Source of the DNA: Aestuariimicrobium kwangyangense DSM 21549
GTDB lineage: Bacteria > Actinomycetota > Actinomycetes > Propionibacteriales > Propionibacteriaceae
DNA length: 64,000 nt
Assembly: GCF_000421525.1 (NCBI RefSeq)
Contig: NZ_ATXE01000004.1
Coordinates: 62,001-126,000, forward strand
Direction of reading: 5' to 3'
The notes under the pieces were generated by a model. The model had not been told where the DNA came from and did not search any database. It saw only the letters and a list, made by a program, of their open reading frames with translations. Below, in pieces: positions 6,986 to 17,933 of the stretch. Position 1 is the first letter of the stretch, and every line of letters starts with the position of its first letter. The translations under genes and the position numbers were made by a program.

Positions 6986-7480
6986 TTGCTCCTCACGCCT
7001 GCGTCGCGCACCCCGCCGCCGCTGGTCGTGGGACGTACCCCCGGGACCTCGGCCGTGCTTCCTGCCACCTCCACCATCGCCCACGACCTACGCGCCGCCT
7101 GCATGCGCATCACCCGACGCGTGCGGCTGCAGGCGACCCGCATCCCCCCGCACTGGTTCACCGTGTTGGCCGCCCTCGACCGGGGGGTGAAGACGGCGAC
7201 GGAACTCGCCGAGCGGGAGCACGTGTCGGCCCCGAGCATGAGCCGCACCCTGAAGGAACTCGAGGACCGCGGTCTCGTCTCACGCACCACCGACCCGGAC
7301 GACCGCCGCTCACGCATCCTCACCCTCACCGAGGCCGGCCTGCGTGAACTCCACGACGGCCGCCGCAGCCGGGACCACTGGATGGTCGAACGCGTGCGCA
7401 GCTGCACCCCGCAGGAGCAGAAAGTCCTGTACGAAGCCACCCTCATCCTCAACCGCCTTCTGGAGGACGACAGTCGATGA
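6986..7480 (+). CDS. MarR-family transcriptional regulator
   Basis: Winged-helix repressor of the MarR family, 164 residues in the longest plausible form. The recognition-helix region reads TATELAEREHVSAPSMSRTLKELEDRGLV, followed by the wing DPDDRRSRILTLTEAG, both diagnostic. The exact start is uncertain: the TTG at 6986 has no ribosome binding site, and the GTG at 7028 would remove 14 proline-rich residues while leaving the whole fold. The stop overlaps the ATG of the MFS transporter gene (ATGA), so the regulator and transporter are one operon. It most likely represses that operon and releases it when a toxic substrate binds. Confidence 0.88.
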   Translation: MLLTPASRTPPPLVVGRTPGTSAVLPATSTIAHDLRAACMRITRRVRLQATRIPPHWFTVLAALDRGVKTATELAEREHVSAPSMSRTLKELEDRGLVSRTTDPDDRRSRILTLTEAGLRELHDGRRSRDHWMVERVRSCTPQEQKVLYEATLILNRLLEDDSR

Positions 7481-8760
7481 GCGTCACGTTCGCGAGCCTG
7501 TCCAACCGCAACTACAAGCGCTACTTCATCGGTCTCACCACCTCCAACATCGGCCAGTGGATGGCCCGCACCGCCCAGGCCTGGCTGGTGCTGGTGACCC
7601 TCACCGGCGGCAACGCCAGCATGTTGGGTTGGCTGACCACGCTCAGCTTCGCGCCGACCCTGTTGCTGGCGCCCATCGCAGGGTCGATCGCCGACCGGGT
7701 CAGCAAGCGGACGATCATGAACGCGGCCGCCTCGATGATGGCCATCGACGCGATCGCGCTGTCGACACTGGTGCTGACTGGGCACGTGCAGTTGTGGCAC
7801 GTGTTCCTGTTGGCCGGTCTGGACGGCACCGCTGCGGCGTTCGACGGGCCGGCCCGGCAGGCCTTCGTCAGTGAGGTGGTGCCGTTGTCGATGCTGCCGA
7901 ACGCGATCAGCCTCAACTCGGCGAGCTTCAACGGTGCCCGCCTGCTGGGCCCCGGTATCGCCGGGGTGCTGATCGCCGCCATCGACACCGGCCCGGTGCT
8001 CGCCCTCAACGTGCTCAGCTTCGCCGCTCTGATCGTGTCGTTGTCGAGCCTCAACCGGGCCGAACTCCACCCCGCTCGCGCCAAGGGCAAGGGGGGACTG
8101 ATCGAGGGGGTGCGCTATGTCCGCGAACGCGCTGACCTCAAGGTGTTGTTGTTCATCGCGTTCATGTTCGGCACCTTCGGCTTCAACGGTGCGATCTCCA
8201 ATGCGGTGATGGCAACCGAGGCGTTCGGCAAGGGCCCCAGCGAGTACGGCATGTTGGGCTCCTGGATGGGACTCGGCGCCCTGACTGGCGCCCTGGCCTC
8301 GGCCCGTCGCCCGCGGCCCCGACTGCGCTACGTGCTCGAGGCGATGGCCGGGTTCGCCATCGTGATGTGCATCTCGGCGATCGCTCCCAACTACTGGTCG
8401 TTCGCGGCCCTGCTGGTGGGGGTCGGTTTCACCTCGATCACCTGCATCATCACGGCCAACTCGCTGGTGCAGATGAGCACGGAGCCCGCCATGCGCGGAC
8501 GGGTGATGAGCCTGTGGGGTGCCGTGATCCTGGGCGGTGTGCCGTTCGTCAGCCCGGTGATCGGCTGGATCGGGGACACCTTCGGCCCCCGCTGGACGGT
8601 GGCGGTGCAGGGCATCCCGATCGGGATCACGTTCGTGCTGGTGACCATGTGGATCATGCGCACCGACCAGTTGTCGGTGGTGGTCGACCGCAACAAGCGG
8701 GCCCCGTGGCTCCGGTTGGTGCGCGGCCAGGTCACCGAGGACGTTCAACTCGGACGGTGA
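7477..8760 (+). CDS. MFS transporter, MFS_3/EntS-like exporter
   Basis: A 427-residue major facilitator protein with about 12 predicted membrane helices. The beginning (SLSNRNYKRYFIG...SNIGQWMARTAQAWLVL) and the loop motif FDGPARQAFVSEVVP are typical of the MFS_3 group, which includes EntS-type siderophore and drug exporters. The MFS signature loop between helices 2 and 3 reads GSIADRVSKR. It overlaps the marR stop by 4 nt and is translationally coupled. The substrate is unknown; the MarR partner suggests efflux of an antimicrobial or phenolic compound. Confidence 0.88.
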   Translation: MSVTFASLSNRNYKRYFIGLTTSNIGQWMARTAQAWLVLVTLTGGNASMLGWLTTLSFAPTLLLAPIAGSIADRVSKRTIMNAAASMMAIDAIALSTLVLTGHVQLWHVFLLAGLDGTAAAFDGPARQAFVSEVVPLSMLPNAISLNSASFNGARLLGPGIAGVLIAAIDTGPVLALNVLSFAALIVSLSSLNRAELHPARAKGKGGLIEGVRYVRERADLKVLLFIAFMFGTFGFNGAISNAVMATEAFGKGPSEYGMLGSWMGLGALTGALASARRPRPRLRYVLEAMAGFAIVMCISAIAPNYWSFAALLVGVGFTSITCIITANSLVQMSTEPAMRGRVMSLWGAVILGGVPFVSPVIGWIGDTFGPRWTVAVQGIPIGITFVLVTMWIMRTDQLSVVVDRNKRAPWLRLVRGQVTEDVQLGR

Positions 8761-8802
8761 CCGCGGGCGTTGGCCGGAGACCGTGATCCGCGGATGTGTG
8801 GC

Positions 8803-8808
8803 AAGAAT
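8803..8808 (+). promoter_or_regulatory. -10 box AAGAAT, leaderless start of 8815 gene
   Basis: AAGAAT followed by 6 nt and then the ATG at 8815. No ribosome binding site is present. Confidence 0.55.
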
Positions 8809-8814
8809 GGACCC

Positions 8815-9696
8815 ATGGCGATCCTGATCGACACCCCCCGCTGGCCGGCCCACGGCACGGTCTTCGGGCACCTCGTCAGCGATCACTCCCTGACGGCACT
8901 GCACCGCTTCGCCCGCGCCAACGCCCTCGACATCCGGGCCTTCGACCACGACCACTTCGACGTCGCCGAGCACCACTTCGACCGGTTGGTCGACGCAGGG
9001 GCCCAGCACATCTCCTCCCGCGAACTCGTCGCGCGGCTCTCCGGGTCGGGACTGCGGGTCCGTCGTCCCGACAAGTTGCCACCGGCTGGCAGCCTGGTCG
9101 AACCGTTGAGGTACCAGTGGACGAACCTGGTGCCCTCCGATCCGGCCCTCGGTGATCGGCTGGTCGACGCCTGGTCGGCACCGGGCCGCCACTACCACGA
9201 CCCCCGCCACCTGTGGATGATGCTGGCGGCGCTCGACGAACTGGGGGCCGCCACCCCCGAACTGCAGCTGGCCACCTGGTTCCACGACGCCATCTACGAC
9301 GGCATCCCGGTGCAGGACGAGGAGGCCAGCGCCGCCTGGGCCGAGCATGCCCTGGCCGGATTGGTGCCCACCAGCACGGTCGCCGAGGTGGCCAGACTCG
9401 TCCGACTGACGATCACCCACGCACCAAGCCGGCACGACGAGGCGGGTCAGGCGCTCAGCGATGCCGACCTGTCGACCCTGGCTGGACCCGAGGGACGGTA
9501 CTGGATGTACGCCCGGGCCATCCGGATGGAGTACGCCCACGTCGACGACGCCGCCTTCCGCCGCGGACGTGCCCAGGTGCTGCAGGGATTCCTCGAGTCC
9601 GAACGCATCTTCCACACCGACCGGGGACTCGAACTGTGGGAGGCCCAGGCGCGGTCGAACCTGACCGGGGAACTCGACTTCCTGCTGCACGACTGA
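8815..9696 (+). CDS. DUF4031 domain fused to HD-type predicted metal-dependent phosphohydrolase
   Basis: A 293-residue cytosolic protein in two parts. Residues 1-90 (MAILIDTPRWPAHGTVFGHLVSD...) match the DUF4031 family, a small actinobacterial domain of unknown function. From about residue 105 the sequence matches the HD-superfamily predicted metal-dependent hydrolases. There the motif RHYHDPRHLWMM and then WFHDAIYD supply the His and Asp metal ligands, and a conserved DADL segment follows at about 220. The ATG at 8815 is chosen because a -10 hexamer lies exactly 6 nt upstream. The substrate is unknown. It stands between the MFS gene and the GDPD-IMPase fusion gene, all on the same strand. 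Confidence 0.8.
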   Translation: MAILIDTPRWPAHGTVFGHLVSDHSLTALHRFARANALDIRAFDHDHFDVAEHHFDRLVDAGAQHISSRELVARLSGSGLRVRRPDKLPPAGSLVEPLRYQWTNLVPSDPALGDRLVDAWSAPGRHYHDPRHLWMMLAALDELGAATPELQLATWFHDAIYDGIPVQDEEASAAWAEHALAGLVPTSTVAEVARLVRLTITHAPSRHDEAGQALSDADLSTLAGPEGRYWMYARAIRMEYAHVDDAAFRRGRAQVLQGFLESERIFHTDRGLELWEAQARSNLTGELDFLLHD

Positions 9697-9761
9697 CCAC
9701 ACCCTCACCCGCCCACCACAGAACTGCCACAACCTGAACGCCCACCACCCAGGAGCAACCC

Positions 9762-11432
9762 GTGCCCATGAATGTCTGCCGCGTCGTCGGCCACCGAGGC
9801 GATCCGGAGTCGGCTCGCGAGAACACCCTCGATGCCTTCGCCGCGGCGATCGAGGCGGGGGTGGACGTGATCGAACTCGACGTGCGCACCACGTCCGACG
9901 GGGTCAGCATCGTGCTCCACGACCCCACGACCTTGCGACTGTGGGGTCGGGCCAGGCCAGTCGGCGAGCAGACGCTGGCCGAGATCCGGGAACTGGGCGT
10001 CGGACCCATTCGCATCCCCACCCTGGCCGAGACCATCGACCTGGTGGCGGCCACGTCACCACGCCCCGGTTTCGGACGACCCACGGTGCTGGTCGACACC
10101 GTCGATGCCGATGACGCCGAGGTCGCCTGGCGGGTGCTGCGTGACCACCCGCACACGGTGAAGGAGACGGAGCCGGGGAACGGCACGACGGGGCAGACCA
10201 CGGCGGGGCGGGGCACGGTGGCCATCGAGTGGTGTGGTGACGCGCAGGCCATGCGGCGGATCCGAGAACTCGACCCATCGGCCACGCTCGCGCACAACCA
10301 CTTGGGAGGGGCGCTCGACCATGACCTGCTGCGACGACAGCGCCCGGACACCGTCAACGTCGAGTGGACCCTGCTCACCCGCGACCTCGTCACCGAGATC
10401 CACCAGCTCGGTCTGCGCTGCGCCACGTGGACGGTCGACTCCGCCGAGGAGATGACCTGGCTGCTGGCGCTGGGCGTCGACCAGATCACCACGAACCGCC
10501 CGCGGGTGTTGCGAAGCCTGGTGCCGGTCAACACCGGCGAGAACCTGATGGTGGCCGGTTCAAGCCCCCTGGCGCTGGCCTGGGCCGACGCCGATGCGCT
10601 CGCCGGGGCTTCCGGGCTCACCGTCGAGGTGGCCCGCTGGGTGTGCGTGGCCAGACAGATCGCCGAGTGGACCATCGCCCACACCCGCACGGCCACCCTG
10701 GGCCGGATCACCACCAAGAAGCACGCCGCAGACATCGTGACTGCCGTCGACGTCGCCGTCGAGGAGCGTGTGCGCGCCATCATCGCCGCCGAGTTCCCCG
10801 ACCACCTGGTCGTCGGCGAGGAGCTGGGCGGGCAGACCCAACCCGGTCGTCCGACCTGGTACCTCGACCCGGTCGACGGCACCACCAACCTCGCCAACCA
10901 CCTGCCCTGGACCTCGATGAGCCTGGCCCTCGCGGTGGACGACCAACCCGTCGTCGCCGTCGTGGCCCAGCCGTGGTCGGGTGAGATCTTCCTGGCGGTG
11001 CGGGGACTCGGTGCCGTGCGCAACGGTGAGCCCCTGCAGATCGGGGCGGTGCGGCAGCTGGCCGGGACGGCGCTGCTCACCGAACTGGCCGGCCACGAGT
11101 TCTGGCCCGGCATGCAACCCTTCCTGGCCAGTCTGGCCGACGAGCACGTCACCACCAGGGTGATGGGTTCGGGCACGCTGACGATGACCCGCATCGCCAG
11201 CCAGTCAGGCATCGGTGGGTTGGTGCACGAGTTCCACGCCATCGACCATCTGGCAGGGGTGCTGATCGCCTCCGAGGCAGGAGCCCGCATCGTCAACTCC
11301 GACGGTGGCGACTCACTGTTCCCCTCTCACGGAGGCATGCTGGTGGCCGCTCCGGGTGCCGCCGAGAAGCTGTGGCCCCTGTGGGAGAGGGCCCTCGCCG
11401 AGGCCTCGGACGACGGGCCCATCGGCGGCTGA
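9762..11432 (+). CDS. glycerophosphodiester phosphodiesterase - inositol monophosphatase fusion
   Basis: A 556-residue fusion of two enzymes that are normally separate. Residues 5-260 form a GDPD TIM barrel: HRG at 11-13, ENT at 20-22, ELD at 38-40 with the metal ligands, and His53 in VLHD. The barrel ends with [25 protein letters not shown]. Residues 270-555 form an inositol-monophosphatase-like domain: DIVTAVD around 334, GEE at 352-354, the metal-binding DPVDGTTN at 369-376, and the second Asp in IDHLAG at 495. GDPD cleaves glycerophosphodiesters; IMPase removes phosphate from inositol or similar sugar-alcohol phosphates. I infer use of glycerophosphoinositol or a related head group, giving glycerol plus inositol. 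The genes immediately downstream phosphorylate dihydroxyacetone, a glycerol product. The GTG at 9762 has AGGAG 7 nt upstream; an in-frame ATG lies two codons later. Confidence 0.85.
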
Positions 11433-11473
11433 GGGTTCCTTCACTTCCCCACCCGTCGGGGTGGGCTCGGTGC

Positions 11474-11479
11474 CAGACT
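11474..11479 (+). promoter_or_regulatory. -10 box CAGACT, leaderless start of dhaK
   Basis: CAGACT, 6 nt spacer, then the dhaK ATG at 11486. The dhaK gene thus has its own promoter in addition to any read-through from the fusion gene. Confidence 0.5.
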
Positions 11480-11485
11480 GAGGCC

Positions 11486-12484
11486 ATGAAGAAGCTCATC
11501 AACGACGCCGGCGCCGTCGTCCGCGATTCCCTGCTCGGAGTGGAGGCCGCACATGCTGACCGTGTGCGTGTCGACCATGAGCACCGGGTCATCCTGCGCC
11601 GCGAACCCACCCGCCAGGGCAAGGTGGCCGTCATCTCGGGCGGAGGCTCCGGCCACGAACCCCTGCACGGGGGTTTCGTCGGTATCGGCATGCTCGATGC
11701 CGCCGTCTGCGGTGAGGTCTTCACCTCACCGACACCCGACCAGATCATGGCCGCCACCACGGCCGTCGACGCCGGTGCGGGGGTGCTGCACGTCGTCAAG
11801 AACTACACCGGCGACATCATGAACTTCGAGATGGCCGCCGAACTGGCCGATGCCGAATCGGGGGTGCGGGTGGCGGCTGTCGTCGTCGACGACGACGTCG
11901 CCGTGCAGGACTCCCTCTACACCGCCGGTCGCCGCGGTGTCGGTCTGACGGTGCTGCTCGAGAAGATCGTCGGAGCCGCCGCCGAGGAGGGACGCGACCT
12001 CGACTCCTGCCTGAAGGTCGCCCAGCAGGTCGTGGCCACCGGCCGGTCGATGGGCATGGCCCTGACCAGCTGCACGGTTCCGGCGGCTGGCAAGCCCACC
12101 TTCGACCTCGGCGAGGGCGAGATGGAGCTCGGCATCGGCATCCACGGCGAACCGGGCCGCGAGCGACTCCCGCTGGGCAGCGCCAAGGAGGTGGCCGCGC
12201 AACTGGTCGAGCCGATCCTGGCCGACCTCGACTTCGCCGGCGACGCCATCGTGATGGTCAACGCCATGGGTGGCACCCCACTGATCGAGCTCTACATCGT
12301 CTACGCCGAGGTGAAGGCGCTGCTCGAGAGCCGAGGCGTCACCATCGTCCGCAACCTCGTCGGGAACTACATCACCTCGCTGGAGATGGCAGGCTGTTCC
12401 GTGACCGTGCTGAAGGCGGACGACGATCTGCTGAAGCTGTGGGACGCACCGGTGAACACGCCGGGACTTCGTTGGGGAGCCTGA
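11486..12484 (+). CDS. dhaK: dihydroxyacetone kinase subunit DhaK
   Basis: Substrate-binding subunit of the PEP-dependent dihydroxyacetone kinase. It binds dihydroxyacetone covalently through a histidine while DhaL transfers phosphate to it. The protein is 332 residues, the usual length. The glycine-rich [13 protein letters not shown] (51-63) and the hemiaminal histidine His220 in GIGIHGEPG are present. The ATG at 11486 lies 6 nt after a -10 hexamer and matches the family N-terminus MKKLIND. Its stop abuts the dhaL ATG with no gap. Confidence 0.96.
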
Positions 12485-13105
12485 ATGACTGACACCGCCG
12501 CCGTGGCCACCTGGTTGGCCGATTTCGCTGCTCTGGTGCACGAGAACGCCAACCTTCTGACCGACCTCGACCGCCAGATCGGCGATGCCGATCACGGGTC
12601 GAACATGGAACGGGGCATGACGGCGGTGGCCGCCCTGGATCCGGGCCAGTACCCCGAACCGGCGGCGCTGTTGAAGGCCGCCGGCATGACCTTGGTCAGC
12701 ACGGTGGGTGGGGCGTCCGGACCGTTGTTCGGCACCTTCTTCCTGAGGCTGGCGACGGCGGCCACGGGGCCTGACATGTCCCCGGCCGAGTTCGCGGCGG
12801 GTCTCGAGGCAGGGCTGGCCGGGGTGGTCGCCCGTGGCAAGGCCTCAGAGGGCGACAAGACCATGATCGACTCTCTCGCACCGGCCGTCCGGGCTTGCCA
12901 GGAGGCGATAGCCGGGGGCGACTCCTTGGCGGACGCGCTGCACAAGGCAGCCGAGGCCGCCGCAGCCGGCCGCGACGCGACCGTGCCGCTGATCGCCCGC
13001 AAGGGCCGGGCCAGCTATCTGGGCGAGCGCTCCCGGGGGGTGCAGGATCCCGGTGCGACCAGTGTGGCGCTGTTGATCGAGAGCGCCGCCCGCACGCTGC
13101 ACTGA
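12485..13105 (+). CDS. dhaL: dihydroxyacetone kinase subunit DhaL
   Basis: ADP-binding subunit that is rephosphorylated by DhaM and passes the phosphate to dihydroxyacetone held on DhaK. It has 206 residues. The Mg-nucleotide loop LDRQIGDADHGSN supplies Asp29, Asp34 and Asp36, and the lid motif GASGPLFGTFF follows at about residue 78. The ATG directly follows the dhaK stop codon, so the two subunits are made in a coupled way. The next gene, dhaM, begins 64 bp downstream after a G-rich spacer. Confidence 0.95.
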   Translation: MTDTAAVATWLADFAALVHENANLLTDLDRQIGDADHGSNMERGMTAVAALDPGQYPEPAALLKAAGMTLVSTVGGASGPLFGTFFLRLATAATGPDMSPAEFAAGLEAGLAGVVARGKASEGDKTMIDSLAPAVRACQEAIAGGDSLADALHKAAEAAAAGRDATVPLIARKGRASYLGERSRGVQDPGATSVALLIESAARTLH

Positions 13106-13169: not shown

Positions 13170-15518
13170 ATGATCGGGGTGGTGGTCGTCTCGCACAGCA
13201 CCGCCGTGGCCGAGGCCGCTGCCTCGCTCGCCCGCGAGATGGTGCCCGCCGACTCGGGGGTACGCCTTGAACGTGCCGCGGGTACCGCGGACGGCGGGTT
13301 CGGCACCGACGCCGTGGCCATCGCCGACGCCATCCAGCGGGCAGACTCGGGTGAGGGCGTGCTCGTGCTGATGGATCTCGGATCCGCGGTGCTGTCGGCC
13401 GAGATGGCCTGTGAGTTCCTCGACCCCGACCAGTCAGCACGAGTGAGGCTCTCCCCCGCCCCACTGGTGGAGGGCCTGCTGGTGGCGGCCGTCAGTGCGG
13501 CCTCGGGAGCCAGTCTCGACGAGGTCGCCGATGAGGCGCTGTCGGCCCTGTCGGCCAAGCGTGACCACCTGGGCGCAGTCGATGACGACCAAGGGCAGCC
13601 AGCTCCCTCCCCCGGCCCCACCACCGCGGCAGCCGGTGATCCGGTGACCGCGGAGTTCGAGATCACCATGCAGCATGGGCTCCACGCCCGACCCGTCGCC
13701 CAGTTGGTCAGCGCACTGCGCGCCTTCGATGCCGAGGTGGTGCTGTCGAATGCCACCACCGGACGAGGTCCGGTACCCGCGACCTCGGTCACCAAGGTGG
13801 CCACGCTGGGTGTCGCCCACGGCCAGCACCTGGCCGCGGCAGCCGTCGGCCCGCAGGCGCAGCAGGCGATCGACCGCCTGGCCGAACTCGTGTCCGACCA
13901 GTTCGGCGAGCGCGAGCCCGACACCTCGGCGGCCAGCGCCGGGATGGCGTCGGGTGGAACCCCCGGAGGTGGCCCTGCCGGGAGCCACCTCACCGGGCGG
14001 CAGGTCGTCGTCGGCCCGGCCGTGGTGGTCTCCGACGACCTCGACCTCTCGACCCACACGCCGTCGACCGACGAGCCCGCCAGGGCTGACCGGGTGCTCA
14101 CGGACCTCGTCGCCGACCTGCAGGCCCGATCCCAGCGCTCACACGGCGACATCTTCGCCGCACAACTGGCCCTGCTCGACGAGTTGGCGACCTCGGTACG
14201 AGACCGCGTCGCCGCCGGTTCCGGGGTCGTGGAGGCGGTCGACACCGTCTTCGGGCAGGTGGCCGCCGAATTCGACCAACTCGCCGACCCCCACCTGCGC
14301 GATCGCGCGCAGGACCTTCGCTCCCTGCGCCGCCAACTGCTCGAAGCCCTGCTGCGCCCCTCGGACGACAGCCCCGTGACCGAGGGCGAGCACGTGCTGG
14401 TGGTGCAGGAACTCGACGCCCTCACCGCCTCCTCGCTCGACGCGTCCCTCACCCTCGCCGTGCTGACCCGTGCCGGTGGGGCGACCGGGCACGGGGCCCT
14501 GGTGGCCGGTTCGCGGGGCATACCCGTGGTGACCGGCCAGGCTGAGTTGTCGGTCGTGACCGGGGACCTCGTCGCTGTCGACCCCGTCGAACAGCGGGTG
14601 TGGGTCAACCCGTCACCAGCCGAGTTGGACGACCTGCGGCGCCGCGGCGCCGAGCGGACCCAGGCCGAGGTCGAGGCCCGCCAGCACGGCCACGAGGAGG
14701 CCATGACCCGCCAGGGCGCCCTGATCGTGGTGAAGGCCAACATCTCCAACCTGACCGATGCGCAGGTCGCATCCGACCAAGGTGCGGACGGATCAGGTCT
14801 GGTGCGCACCGAACTGCTGTTCGGGGACCGCGCAACGGCGCCCTCGGCTGAGGAACAGGCGGAGGTGTTCATCGCCGTGGGCCGGGCCCTGGGCGGTCGT
14901 CCGATCACCGTGCGCACCTGGGACGCCGGCGCTGACAAGCCGCTGCGCTTCATCGACCAGGTCGCCGAACTGAACCCCTTCCTCGGCGAACGCGGCGTGC
15001 GGACGATGAGGCGGGTGCCCGAGGTCTTCGACGAGCAGTTGCGGGCGGTCGTGCTCGCCAACCGCCAGACCCCGGTGAAGGTGATGCTGCCGATGGTCAC
15101 CACCACCGACGAGGTGCTGTGGGCGCGGCGGCGACTCGAGGCAGTGTGTCGGGAACTCCACTCCGATCCCGTGCCGCTCGGCATGATGGTCGAGGTGCCA
15201 GCCGCAGCCATCCGCGCCGGCGACTTCGTCGACCTGGTCGACTTCGCGAGCATCGGCACCAACGACCTCACCCAGTACACGGCCGCCGTCGACCGGGGCA
15301 ACGCCTCGGTCCAACGGCTCGCCCGGGACTCGTCCGAAGCGGTCTTCGACCTGATCACCATGACCTGCCTGGGACTGATGGGCCTGCCGGTCAGTGTCTG
15401 CGGTGACCTCGCCAGTGACCTCGACGCGGTACCGCGACTGATCCGCGCAGGGGTGACCGAGTTGAGCGTGCGCCCCTCGATGGTGGCGCTGGTCAAGCAG
15501 TCCGTGCGGGAGGCCTGA
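13170..15518 (+). CDS. dhaM: DhaM-HPr-EI multiphosphoryl transfer protein
   Basis: Phosphoryl donor of the dihydroxyacetone kinase, 782 residues with three domains in one chain. Residues 1-130 are the EIIA-mannose-like DhaM domain with phospho-His9 in VVSHS. Residues 157-250 are HPr with His172 in LHARP. Residues 280-782 are a complete enzyme I: phospho-His441 in GGATGHGALVA, the PEP-binding barrel with GMMVEVPAAAI and GTNDLTQY, and Cys744 in SVCGD. It can therefore carry phosphate from PEP to DhaL without the general PTS proteins. The domain order and His positions are as in E. coli DhaM, but the EI part here looks full length with its C-terminal PEP domain. An Ala/Pro/Gly-rich linker joins the domains. 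The ATG at 13170 has GAGGTG upstream. Confidence 0.93.
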   Translation: MIGVVVVSHSTAVAEAAASLAREMVPADSGVRLERAAGTADGGFGTDAVAIADAIQRADSGEGVLVLMDLGSAVLSAEMACEFLDPDQSARVRLSPAPLVEGLLVAAVSAASGASLDEVADEALSALSAKRDHLGAVDDDQGQPAPSPGPTTAAAGDPVTAEFEITMQHGLHARPVAQLVSALRAFDAEVVLSNATTGRGPVPATSVTKVATLGVAHGQHLAAAAVGPQAQQAIDRLAELVSDQFGEREPDTSAASAGMASGGTPGGGPAGSHLTGRQVVVGPAVVVSDDLDLSTHTPSTDEPARADRVLTDLVADLQARSQRSHGDIFAAQLALLDELATSVRDRVAAGSGVVEAVDTVFGQVAAEFDQLADPHLRDRAQDLRSLRRQLLEALLRPSDDSPVTEGEHVLVVQELDALTASSLDASLTLAVLTRAGGATGHGALVAGSRGIPVVTGQAELSVVTGDLVAVDPVEQRVWVNPSPAELDDLRRRGAERTQAEVEARQHGHEEAMTRQGALIVVKANISNLTDAQVASDQGADGSGLVRTELLFGDRATAPSAEEQAEVFIAVGRALGGRPITVRTWDAGADKPLRFIDQVAELNPFLGERGVRTMRRVPEVFDEQLRAVVLANRQTPVKVMLPMVTTTDEVLWARRRLEAVCRELHSDPVPLGMMVEVPAAAIRAGDFVDLVDFASIGTNDLTQYTAAVDRGNASVQRLARDSSEAVFDLITMTCLGLMGLPVSVCGDLASDLDAVPRLIRAGVTELSVRPSMVALVKQSVREA

Positions 15519-15870: not shown

Positions 15871-16680
15871 ATGGCGAACACCAAGGCAGTGATCATGGCG
15901 CGCGGGCTCGGCTCGCGCATGCGCAAGCAGGCCGACGGGGTCGCGCTCACCGAGCAGCAACAGGCCGCCGCCGATTCCGGCGTGAAGGCGATGATCTCGG
16001 TCGGACGCCCCTTCCTCGACCATGTCATCTCGGCCCTGGCCGATGCCGGTTTCACCGATATCTGCTTGGTGATCGGGCCCGAGCACCAGGTGATCCGCGA
16101 CCACTACGACAGCGTCGAGAAGACCCGCGTGACGATCAGCTACGCCGTGCAGGAGGAGCCGCTCGGTACCGCCAACGCCTACCTCGCCGCCGCGGACTTC
16201 GCGGGTGACGACCGGGTGCTGCTGGTGAACTCCGACAACTACTACCCCGCCGAGGCGGTGGCGCTGCTCAACGGGCTGACCACCTCCGGGCTGCTGGGAT
16301 TCGACTCCCGCGCCATGATCGAGCAGTCGAACATCCCTGCCGACCGGGTCGCCGCCTTCGCCCTGGTCACCGCGGACGACCAGGGACACCTGACCTCGCT
16401 GATCGAGAAGCCCTCCCCCGACCAGGTGGCCGCTGCCGGTGAGTCGCCGCTGGTGTCGATGAACTGCTGGCTGCTCGGGCCCGCCGTGCTCGAGGCCGCC
16501 CGCCACGTGCCGCTGTCGGCGCGCGGCGAGTACGAGATCGTGGACGCCGTGCGGGCAGCCATCGAGTCCGGTGAGACCGTCACCCTGGTGCCCGTGCGGG
16601 CCGGGGTGCTCGACATGTCGAACCGCGGCGACATCGCCTCGGTCGTCGAGGCCCTCGCAGATCGTCCGTGCACCCTGTGA
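15871..16680 (+). CDS. sugar-phosphate nucleotidyltransferase
   Basis: A 269-residue Rossmann-type NTP transferase that should join a sugar-1-phosphate to a nucleoside triphosphate. The N-terminal nucleotide motif is MARGLGSRMR, a variant of the usual LAAGxGxRM. A product-binding region is seen as EEPLGTANAYLAA, followed by VNSDNYYP, which holds the metal-binding Asp. An EKP motif appears at about residue 185 and the C-terminal half has YEIVDAV. The stop codon overlaps the start of a galactokinase-like gene, so the pair probably converts a free sugar to sugar-1-phosphate and then to a nucleotide sugar. Which sugar and which nucleotide cannot be told from sequence. Confidence 0.85.
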   Translation: MANTKAVIMARGLGSRMRKQADGVALTEQQQAAADSGVKAMISVGRPFLDHVISALADAGFTDICLVIGPEHQVIRDHYDSVEKTRVTISYAVQEEPLGTANAYLAAADFAGDDRVLLVNSDNYYPAEAVALLNGLTTSGLLGFDSRAMIEQSNIPADRVAAFALVTADDQGHLTSLIEKPSPDQVAAAGESPLVSMNCWLLGPAVLEAARHVPLSARGEYEIVDAVRAAIESGETVTLVPVRAGVLDMSNRGDIASVVEALADRPCTL

Positions 16681-17933
16681 GCGCCCAGACCGGCCGACGG
16701 GTCGACGCCGTCGTGCGGTGGTTCGTGCCCGGGCGCATCGAGGTGTTGGGCAAGCACACCGACTACGCCGGCGGCCGCTCGCTGCTGGCCGCCGTCGACC
16801 GGGGTGTGACCGTCGAGGCGAGGTTCGCGTCGGGCGACGAGTTCATCGGACGAACCGACGCCACCCCGGGCGAGGTGGTGCTGATGCGTACCGGTGAGGC
16901 ACCCCGCTCGGGCCATGGAGCATCCCTGCCCGAGGGCCACTGGGGCCACTACCTGGCCACTGTCGTCGACCGTCTCGGCTCCAATTTCGGTGCCCTGCCC
17001 CCGGCCGAGATCGAGGTCAGCTCGGACCTTCCACTGGCCAGTGGCATGTCGTCGTCATCGGCCCTCATCACCGCGATCGCCTTGGCGCTGGTCGACCTCA
17101 ACTCGATCACCGACCACCCGGCGTGGCGTGAGAACATCGCCACCCGTATCGACCTGGCCGGCTACGTGGCCTGCATCGAGAACGGCATGTCTTTCGGCAG
17201 CCTGGCGGGACATCGGGGGGTCGGAACCTTCGGTGGATCCGAGGACCACACCGGCATGCTCTGCGGCGTCACCGGCCACCTCGGTCAGTTCTCGTTCTGC
17301 CCCATCCGGGAGGAGGCCCAGATCCCCTTCCCCGACGACCTGTCGTTCGTCGTGGCCGTCTCGGGGGTGGCCGCCGAGAAGACCGGTGCCGCCCGTGACC
17401 TCTACAACCGGGCCTCACTGTCGACCCTCGAGATCGTCGACCGCTGGAACGCCCAGACCGGGCGCTCCGACGTGGTGCTCGCCGACGCCGTCGCCTCCTC
17501 ACCCGATGCTCCCGACCGGCTACGGGCCCTGGTGGCCGGCGACGACCGTCTTGCGAAGCGGTTGCACCAATTCCTCGAGGAGTCCGACCGCATCGTCCCC
17601 GCCGCTGCGGCGGCCTTGGCGGCAGGTGACCTCGTCGGGTTCGGACGACTCGTCGACCAGTCGCAGCGGTTGACCACCACCGACCTGGGCAACCAGGTGG
17701 ACGAGACCGTCGCCCTGGCCCGGTTGGCACGCGAGCGCGGCGCGCTGGCTGCCTCGGCCTTCGGGGCAGGCTTCGGTGGTTCGGTGTGGGCGCTTGTCCC
17801 CACGGTCGACGCCGAGGAGTTCGCCGCCGGCTGGCTGGCCGAGTACCGCGCGCAGTTCCCGGACGCCGGTGCCCGCGCGACCACGTTGGTCACCCGCCCG
17901 GGTGACCCGGCTCGGCCCGTCGCCATCGGCTGA
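16677..17933 (+). CDS. galactokinase-like GHMP sugar kinase
   Basis: A 418-residue GHMP kinase. The three family motifs are present: the galactokinase signature GRIEVLGKHTDYAGG near the N-terminus, the ATP loop LASGMSSSSAL at about residue 120, and GAGFGGSVWAL near the C-terminus. These are the marks of galactokinase rather than of homoserine or mevalonate kinases. The start is the GTG at 16677, which overlaps the TGA of the nucleotidyltransferase gene; a GTG three codons earlier is also possible. The coupled pair indicates a sugar salvage step feeding a nucleotide sugar. The sugar might be galactose, arabinose or another; there is no epimerase or uridylyltransferase nearby. Confidence 0.87.
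   Translation: MSAQTGRRVDAVVRWFVPGRIEVLGKHTDYAGGRSLLAAVDRGVTVEARFASGDEFIGRTDATPGEVVLMRTGEAPRSGHGASLPEGHWGHYLATVVDRLGSNFGALPPAEIEVSSDLPLASGMSSSSALITAIALALVDLNSITDHPAWRENIATRIDLAGYVACIENGMSFGSLAGHRGVGTFGGSEDHTGMLCGVTGHLGQFSFCPIREEAQIPFPDDLSFVVAVSGVAAEKTGAARDLYNRASLSTLEIVDRWNAQTGRSDVVLADAVASSPDAPDRLRALVAGDDRLAKRLHQFLEESDRIVPAAAAALAAGDLVGFGRLVDQSQRLTTTDLGNQVDETVALARLARERGALAASAFGAGFGGSVWALVPTVDAEEFAAGWLAEYRAQFPDAGARATTLVTRPGDPARPVAIG

Follow-up and report, generated by a model that had tools for sequence, protein, structure and literature searches.

A glycerophosphodiesterase-inositol monophosphatase fusion common in actinobacteria, with an ABC importer as its conserved genomic partner

In a 64,000-nucleotide stretch of the Aestuariimicrobium kwangyangense DSM 21549 genome, hereafter the window, one gene encodes a glycerophosphodiesterase (GDPD) domain and an inositol monophosphatase (IMPase) domain in a single chain. 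Our survey of related genomes found that this fusion is common in actinobacteria, being no curiosity of one genome, and that the conserved partner of the GDPD-IMPase unit is an ABC importer and not the dhaKLM genes that follow the fusion in the window. We consider it probable (about 0.6) that the protein is a cytoplasmic bifunctional hydrolase of organophosphate scavenging, in which an imported sugar or polyol phosphodiester would be split by the GDPD half and then dephosphorylated by the IMPase half. Under this proposal the importer would bring in a glycerophosphoinositol-like or agrocinopine-like diester, the phosphate would remain with the sugar or polyol after cleavage, and its subsequent removal would yield two alcohols plus Pi; in A. 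kwangyangense a separate importer cassette would feed the fusion enzyme. We infer the order of these steps, the cleavage side, the substrate class and the supply of this enzyme by that cassette.

Table 1. Features of the fusion locus and its surroundings (positions are those of the window)
Feature	Position	Strand	Basis or remark
MFS transporter gene	7477..8760	+	precedes the fusion here and in G001, G021 and G341
AGGAG, likely ribosome-binding site	9751..9755	+	read directly from the sequence
GDPD-IMPase fusion gene	9762..11432	+	single ORF, 556 aa, GTG start, Pfam domains
GDPD domain, TIM-barrel phosphodiesterase, residues 11-248	9792..10505	+	PF03009; structural match 2pz0_B
Asp112 codon, third metal-ligand position (Glu in other GDPDs); Val114 at the usual Lys, +2	10095..10097	+	alignment
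Linker region between domains	10506..10631	+	partly low model confidence
IMPase domain, residues 291-550 in the model	10632..11411	+	PF00459; structural match 2p3n_A
dhaK, lineage-specific neighbour	11486..12484	+	TIGR02363, 476.6 bits; start read directly
dhaL	12485..13105	+	TIGR02365, 218 bits
dhaM fused to HPr and enzyme I domains	13170..15518	+	domain matches

The 556 codons of the fusion ORF run without an internal stop. An earlier note on this DNA had described both domains as intact in one 556-residue chain, which description held: the GDPD match (PF03009, residues 11-248) scored 122.6 bits against a gathering cut-off of 23.6, the Inositol_P match (PF00459, residues 316-537) scored 137 bits against 27, and the residues quoted there—HRG 11-13, ELD 38-40, His53, GEE 352-354, DPVDGTT 369-375 and Asp495—all occupy the positions given for them. 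In an AlphaFold model built from 41 sequences (mean pLDDT 89.6, pTM 0.62) both halves are predicted to fold confidently, with a block of linker residues, 251-280, at pLDDT 58-71. On structural comparison of that model, the GDPD half matched the solved GDPD 2pz0_B (Z 28.7, rmsd 2.2, 228 aligned) and the IMPase half the solved IMPase 2p3n_A (Z 33.9, rmsd 1.9, 254 aligned), most rows of the comparison being IMPases. A sequencing joint of two frames, which the same note had named as an outcome that would speak against a fusion, can be set aside, since full-length relatives with the same domain order in one frame, at 41-57% identity, occur in other genomes.

The distribution of the pair was followed in two samples. 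Among 391 order-level genomes, 25 (the window included) gave a match at E <= 1e-30, and their loci comprised 10 single-frame fusions, one frame-broken fusion in the metagenome-derived genome G341 (locus L113), 11 separate GDPD and IMPase pairs with the genes close by—those of G253 being separated by about 1.6 kb and two predicted genes—and three loci with the IMPase only; the window genome and its sister genome G001 belong to the same genus group. With the window protein alone as query the species genomes gave no match, and an alignment was needed to find relatives; 263 were then found, of which the best 80 were kept, eight of these being order-level genomes again. Both domains were present in 76 of those best 80, in one ORF at 59 loci and in two ORFs at 17, L113 among the latter, and the other four had the IMPase only, on cut contigs. 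All the best 80 of 263 are actinobacterial, from Arthrobacter, Cryobacterium, Sinomonas, Agreia, Clavibacter, Microbacterium, Leifsonia, Curtobacterium, Kribbella, Microlunatus, Propionibacterium, Tessaracoccus and others, several bins included. The picture of two enzymes known only apart, from which the earlier note had started, was therefore wrong in general, whereas the functional pairing that it proposed gained support, in that unfused GDPD and IMPase genes mostly lie together and two alphaproteobacterial importer operons hold the same pair. In a quick tree (92 rows, SH-aLRT only) the fused and separate states changed into one another at least four times. Within titles and abstract starts of the open-licence literature we found no description of the fusion protein, which result does not imply its absence from print. 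At L157, L158 and L159 (two Acidimicrobiaceae bins and one Actinomycetes bin) the GDPD and IMPase genes are followed by a second, divergent GDPD gene.

Directly upstream of the GDPD-IMPase unit, an ABC importer ATPase gene was present in 63 of the 76 two-domain loci among the best 80 of 263 relatives, which agrocinopine-type arrangement, with importer, GDPD and IMPase genes together, is not found in the window itself. The stop of the ATPase gene overlapped the first GDPD-frame start codon by 4 bases in 37 of the 63, and a binding-protein gene and two permease genes preceded the ATPase gene in 60, the remaining three (L098, L106, L159) beginning at a contig end. As to the 13 loci without the importer ATPase, L108 and L157, both interrupted by a contig end, hold ATPase remnants, and L137 begins at a contig end; importer adjacency underwent at least eight changes in the same quick SH-aLRT-only tree. 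Judged by family models, five importer-locus subunits of relatives resembled those of polyamine, phosphonate and iron importers, and none reached the cut-off of any listed family. The binding protein gave only weak matches to PDB sequences, iron, polyamine and maltose binders among them (best E 9e-6), and we therefore name no ligand, the matches being all weak and mixed in ligand.

The window genome holds the whole importer cassette at C1:727555-731550, on another contig than the fusion, with identities to three relatives of 49-51% for the binding protein, 49% and 63-67% for the permeases and 55-67% for the ATPase. Besides the fusion, that genome has two further GDPD matches and two further IMPase matches, each at another place, and because all of them, the fusion included, lie elsewhere, no such enzyme stands beside the cassette. 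With the fusion gene apart from the importer and in front of dhaKLM, a split of the importer-enzyme operon in the window lineage is the simplest reading.

A role is assigned in GDPDs to the Lys that follows the third metal ligand. In GlpQ of B. subtilis the third ligand is Glu-152, and roles are described for two catalytic His and for the Arg beside the first (PMC7086022, in part of its text). We located the ligand positions by reference to a canonical GDPD from the window genome and two GDPDs of rhizobia. The window GDPD half keeps both catalytic His and the Arg (H11, H53 and R12), together with E38 and D40; in place of a Glu-Asp-Glu metal site with ELK, it has D112 as third ligand and V114 at the Lys position. 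The Asp112/Val114 change does not appear in the earlier note. Of 96 rows, 88 had Asp at the third position, one had Glu and seven had another residue, and the usual Lys occurred in 0 of the 96, in which set seven genomes stand twice and the G105 row was left out, its copy L118 being counted. Since the metal site is thus altered, with Glu changed to Asp and the Lys lost, activity is not certain even in the window protein. Within the 41 aligned fusions, H11 was kept in 37, R12 in 40, E38 in 40, D40 in 41, H53 in 39 and D112 in 37, and all departures came from L082 and three Curtobacterium rows.

GDPD catalytic residues were lost in G001 (= L082) and in the Curtobacterium loci L128, L133, L140, L150 and L137, the last of which is truncated and was judged by its third ligand; the losses amount to two changes in the quick tree of 92 rows with SH-aLRT only. 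In L128, L133, L140 and L150 the first catalytic His and the third ligand are gone and the GDPD domain persists, a state that suggests that the Curtobacterium GDPD half is a natural pseudoenzyme half. The earlier note had counted an inactive domain as evidence against its proposal; to judge from the residues, such a domain probably occurs in the fusion of G001 and not in that of the window. The GDPD half also diverged faster than the IMPase half, with 42 versus 67% identity to G001 and 45 versus 60% to G021.

We compared these losses with the presence of the importer, judged by the binding protein alone among the subunits. For the binding protein, matches in the genomes of the six GDPD-loss loci were weak throughout (best E 1.7e-7 to 1.4e-5), and another query gave no match in G001. 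GDPD residue loss was accordingly confined to genomes whose matches to the binding protein, if any, were weak, but the converse fails: G021, L119, L124, L152, G038, G041 and G050 keep the GDPD site with weak binding-protein matches at most. The genome of L105 contains the binding protein only as a 70-residue piece, and strong matches away from the locus were obtained for G053, G044, G035, L108 and L138; the GDPD of G044 lies outside the 96 rows, and no GDPD was found beside the IMPase of G035. As the site is kept in several genomes without a clear binding protein, importer loss would permit GDPD decay and not force it.

The IMPase half presents a different record. Its metal residues—GEE, DPxDGT and the last Asp—are present in the window protein and in 40 to 41 of the 41 rows: E354, D369, D372 and D495 are invariant in the aligned fusions, and E353 is kept in 40, being replaced by Gly in L105, in which one Glu of GEE is therefore lost. 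The four rows with a damaged GDPD half retain all these residues, from which it would follow that the IMPase half has retained an independent function. The half scored 85.4 bits against 332 for the inositol-1-monophosphatase equivalog NF008027 and fell below the cut-off of every listed equivalog; the Trp before the last metal Asp, present in SuhB, IMPA2 and three alphaproteobacterial relatives, is replaced in 41 of 41 fusions, and a W-P-G-M stretch is conserved, which features point to a distinct subfamily. The inositol specificity supposed earlier rested on the family name and finds no warrant in the sequence of this divergent half.

Around the fusion, the window has a DUF4031 gene (8770-9696) between the MFS gene and the fusion, which gene is absent from that place in G001 and G021, in both of which the fusion comes right after the MFS gene. 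On the other side, dhaK begins 53 bases after the fusion stop codon; the RNA folding of that gap is ordinary (z -0.59), and a search of 9600-11600 for promoter- or terminator-like sites found none. The DhaM-HPr-enzyme I protein has 782 aa, and its G001 version, with no dhaK or dhaL beside it, 770 aa; to judge from its domains, this protein might on its own relay phosphate from PEP to DhaL, with no further PTS protein needed. Two overlapping genes, one for a nucleotidyltransferase and the next for a galactokinase-like GHMP kinase, lie 3' of dhaKLM (15871-17933); both products fall below the cut-off of every listed NCBIfam model, the pair recurs in G001 at 60-61% identity, and together they form a putative sugar activation route.

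The dha genes were the basis of the reading put forward earlier, by which the fusion would convert glycerophosphoinositol to glycerol, inositol and Pi, perhaps with channelling, and dhaKLM would handle the dihydroxyacetone made from the glycerol. That reading we regard as improbable. GDE3, a mammalian GDPD-family enzyme, is described in part of PMC5576486 as leaving inositol 1-phosphate on the product cut from GPI anchors, and a title cited there calls GDE3 glycerophosphoinositol-specific; dhaK, dhaL and dhaM do follow the gene in the window and in G021, and dhaK with a cut dhaL in G341, but these three are the only loci among the 25 of the order-level sample where dhaK and dhaL adjoin the fusion. 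Near the best 80 of 263 species-genome loci, dhaKL occurred twice, at L113 and at L109, where they are divergent and upstream of the importer; because DhaK is present in 48 of the 57 relatives searched, one neighbour of the L109 type among 80 loci may be chance. The window genome, moreover, encodes a glycerol kinase (730.7 bits against a cut-off of 590.35), and released glycerol would therefore not need the dhaKLM route; the dhaKLM link is weak. In G001 the DhaM-HPr-enzyme I protein stands beside a fusion whose GDPD half is damaged, dhaKL being absent from that place; a functional link between the missing dhaKL and the GDPD decay of G001 was considered and dropped, given four DhaK matches elsewhere in that genome. 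The pTM, the low-confidence linker and the occurrence of two ORFs in 17 of the 76 loci lend channelling no support.

It also appears unlikely that the GDPD half releases glycerol 3-phosphate, in the manner of Ugp systems, with the IMPase half dephosphorylating that product or another cellular phosphomonoester. GDPDs in general make glycerol 3-phosphate, according to part of PMC4926365, and in R. etli a GDPD gene lies behind the Ugp importer genes in the same way; to destroy glycerol 3-phosphate would, however, presumably be wasteful, and the importer subunits of the relatives remain below the Ugp cut-offs, the ATPase with 313.5 bits against 432 for UgpC and one permease with 18.9 against 297 for UgpE. 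A GDPD half that is a structural or regulatory remnant family-wide, the IMPase half alone being catalytic, would agree with the prevalence of Asp at the third ligand, the universal absence of the Lys, the faster divergence of that half and its retention in two lineages after loss of the catalytic residues. We nevertheless hold this explanation to be quite improbable in view of the conservation of H11, R12, E38, D40, H53 and D112 across the fusions, since such constraint is to be expected of a working variant site. For the bifunctional scavenging hydrolase, on the other hand, the recurrence of GDPD and IMPase behind importers in different settings agrees with a GDPD cleavage after which the phosphate stays on a sugar or polyol, in which event a second enzyme would be needed.

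Somewhat tentatively, we extend this proposal to the family: the unit may constitute an undescribed and widespread system of actinobacteria for taking up sugar or polyol phosphodiesters, composed of an ABC importer and a two-step enzyme with an Asp-type GDPD site devoid of the Lys, the phosphate being left on the sugar or polyol—a counterpart of agrocinopine catabolism. If true, the conserved importer and enzyme of Arthrobacter, Sinomonas, Microbacterium, Leifsonia, Clavibacter, Kribbella and relatives would acquire a function, and an organic phosphorus source would be hidden from present annotation; the natural GDPD losses where the binding protein was not found would serve as an existing test case for the import dependence of either half.

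As regards known systems, the fusion shares with the PF03009 GDPDs, of which 2pz0 is the nearest solved, the TIM barrel and the HRG, ENT, E.D and HD motifs, and differs from them in the change of Glu to Asp at the third metal ligand and in the absent Lys. With the PF00459 IMPases (SuhB, IMPA1/2) it has the fold and the metal-binding motifs in common, but it lacks the Trp before the last metal Asp, has the W-P-G-M stretch and lies below the equivalog cut-offs. UgpBAEC-UgpQ resembles the actinobacterial unit in that a GDPD gene follows importer genes, although that importer is of another subfamily; in R. etli the GDPD motif reads EIK, and the annotation of a 15-kb stretch at the Ugp locus lists no IMPase gene. 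A plasmid operon of Rhizobium NXC14, with binding protein, two permeases, ATPase, GDPD, LacI and IMPase genes, likewise unites importer, GDPD and IMPase, but there the genes are separate, the GDPD keeps ELK, and the actinobacterial profile did not find the binding protein. In Roseomonas gilardii (L080, 995-9167) genes for an IMPase and a histidine-type phosphatase come after an iron-type-annotated ABC importer, and an inositol 2-dehydrogenase gene is close by, a gene content that looks like inositol phosphate uptake.

There is also a close resemblance to the acc genes of agrocinopine catabolism and to an operon on the A. fabrum plasmid pAtAG67, in both of which, as in the actinobacterial unit, importer, phosphodiesterase and phosphatase genes lie together. 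We take AccF to belong to the GDPD family and AccG to the IMPase family. AccF releases sugar 2-phosphates, and AccG is a putative phosphatase, as given in part of PMC4526662; this pair is a precedent for the two-step route proposed here. The pAtAG67 operon consists of ATPase, two permease, binding-protein, GDPD and overlapping IMPase genes and continues with Na/Pi cotransporter and sucrose phosphorylase genes. The actinobacterial cassette profile finds its binding protein at E 8e-20, whereas the binding proteins of three other compared importers (L078, L079, L080) gave no match at E <= 1, and the permease profiles gave 103 and 73 bits for the pAtAG67 permeases against 47 and 19 for those of Ugp. 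The enzyme halves are not especially close, with 109 bits to the GDPD profile against 95 and 87 for two others, and 85 bits to the IMPase profile against 146 and 144; moreover, the actinobacterial enzymes are often fused and have the variant GDPD site, while the plasmid GDPD keeps ELK. Although pAtAG67 is described, in part of PMC10745273, as an octopine/cucumopine-catabolic plasmid, we infer an agrocinopine-like substrate for this operon because of its sucrose phosphorylase gene.
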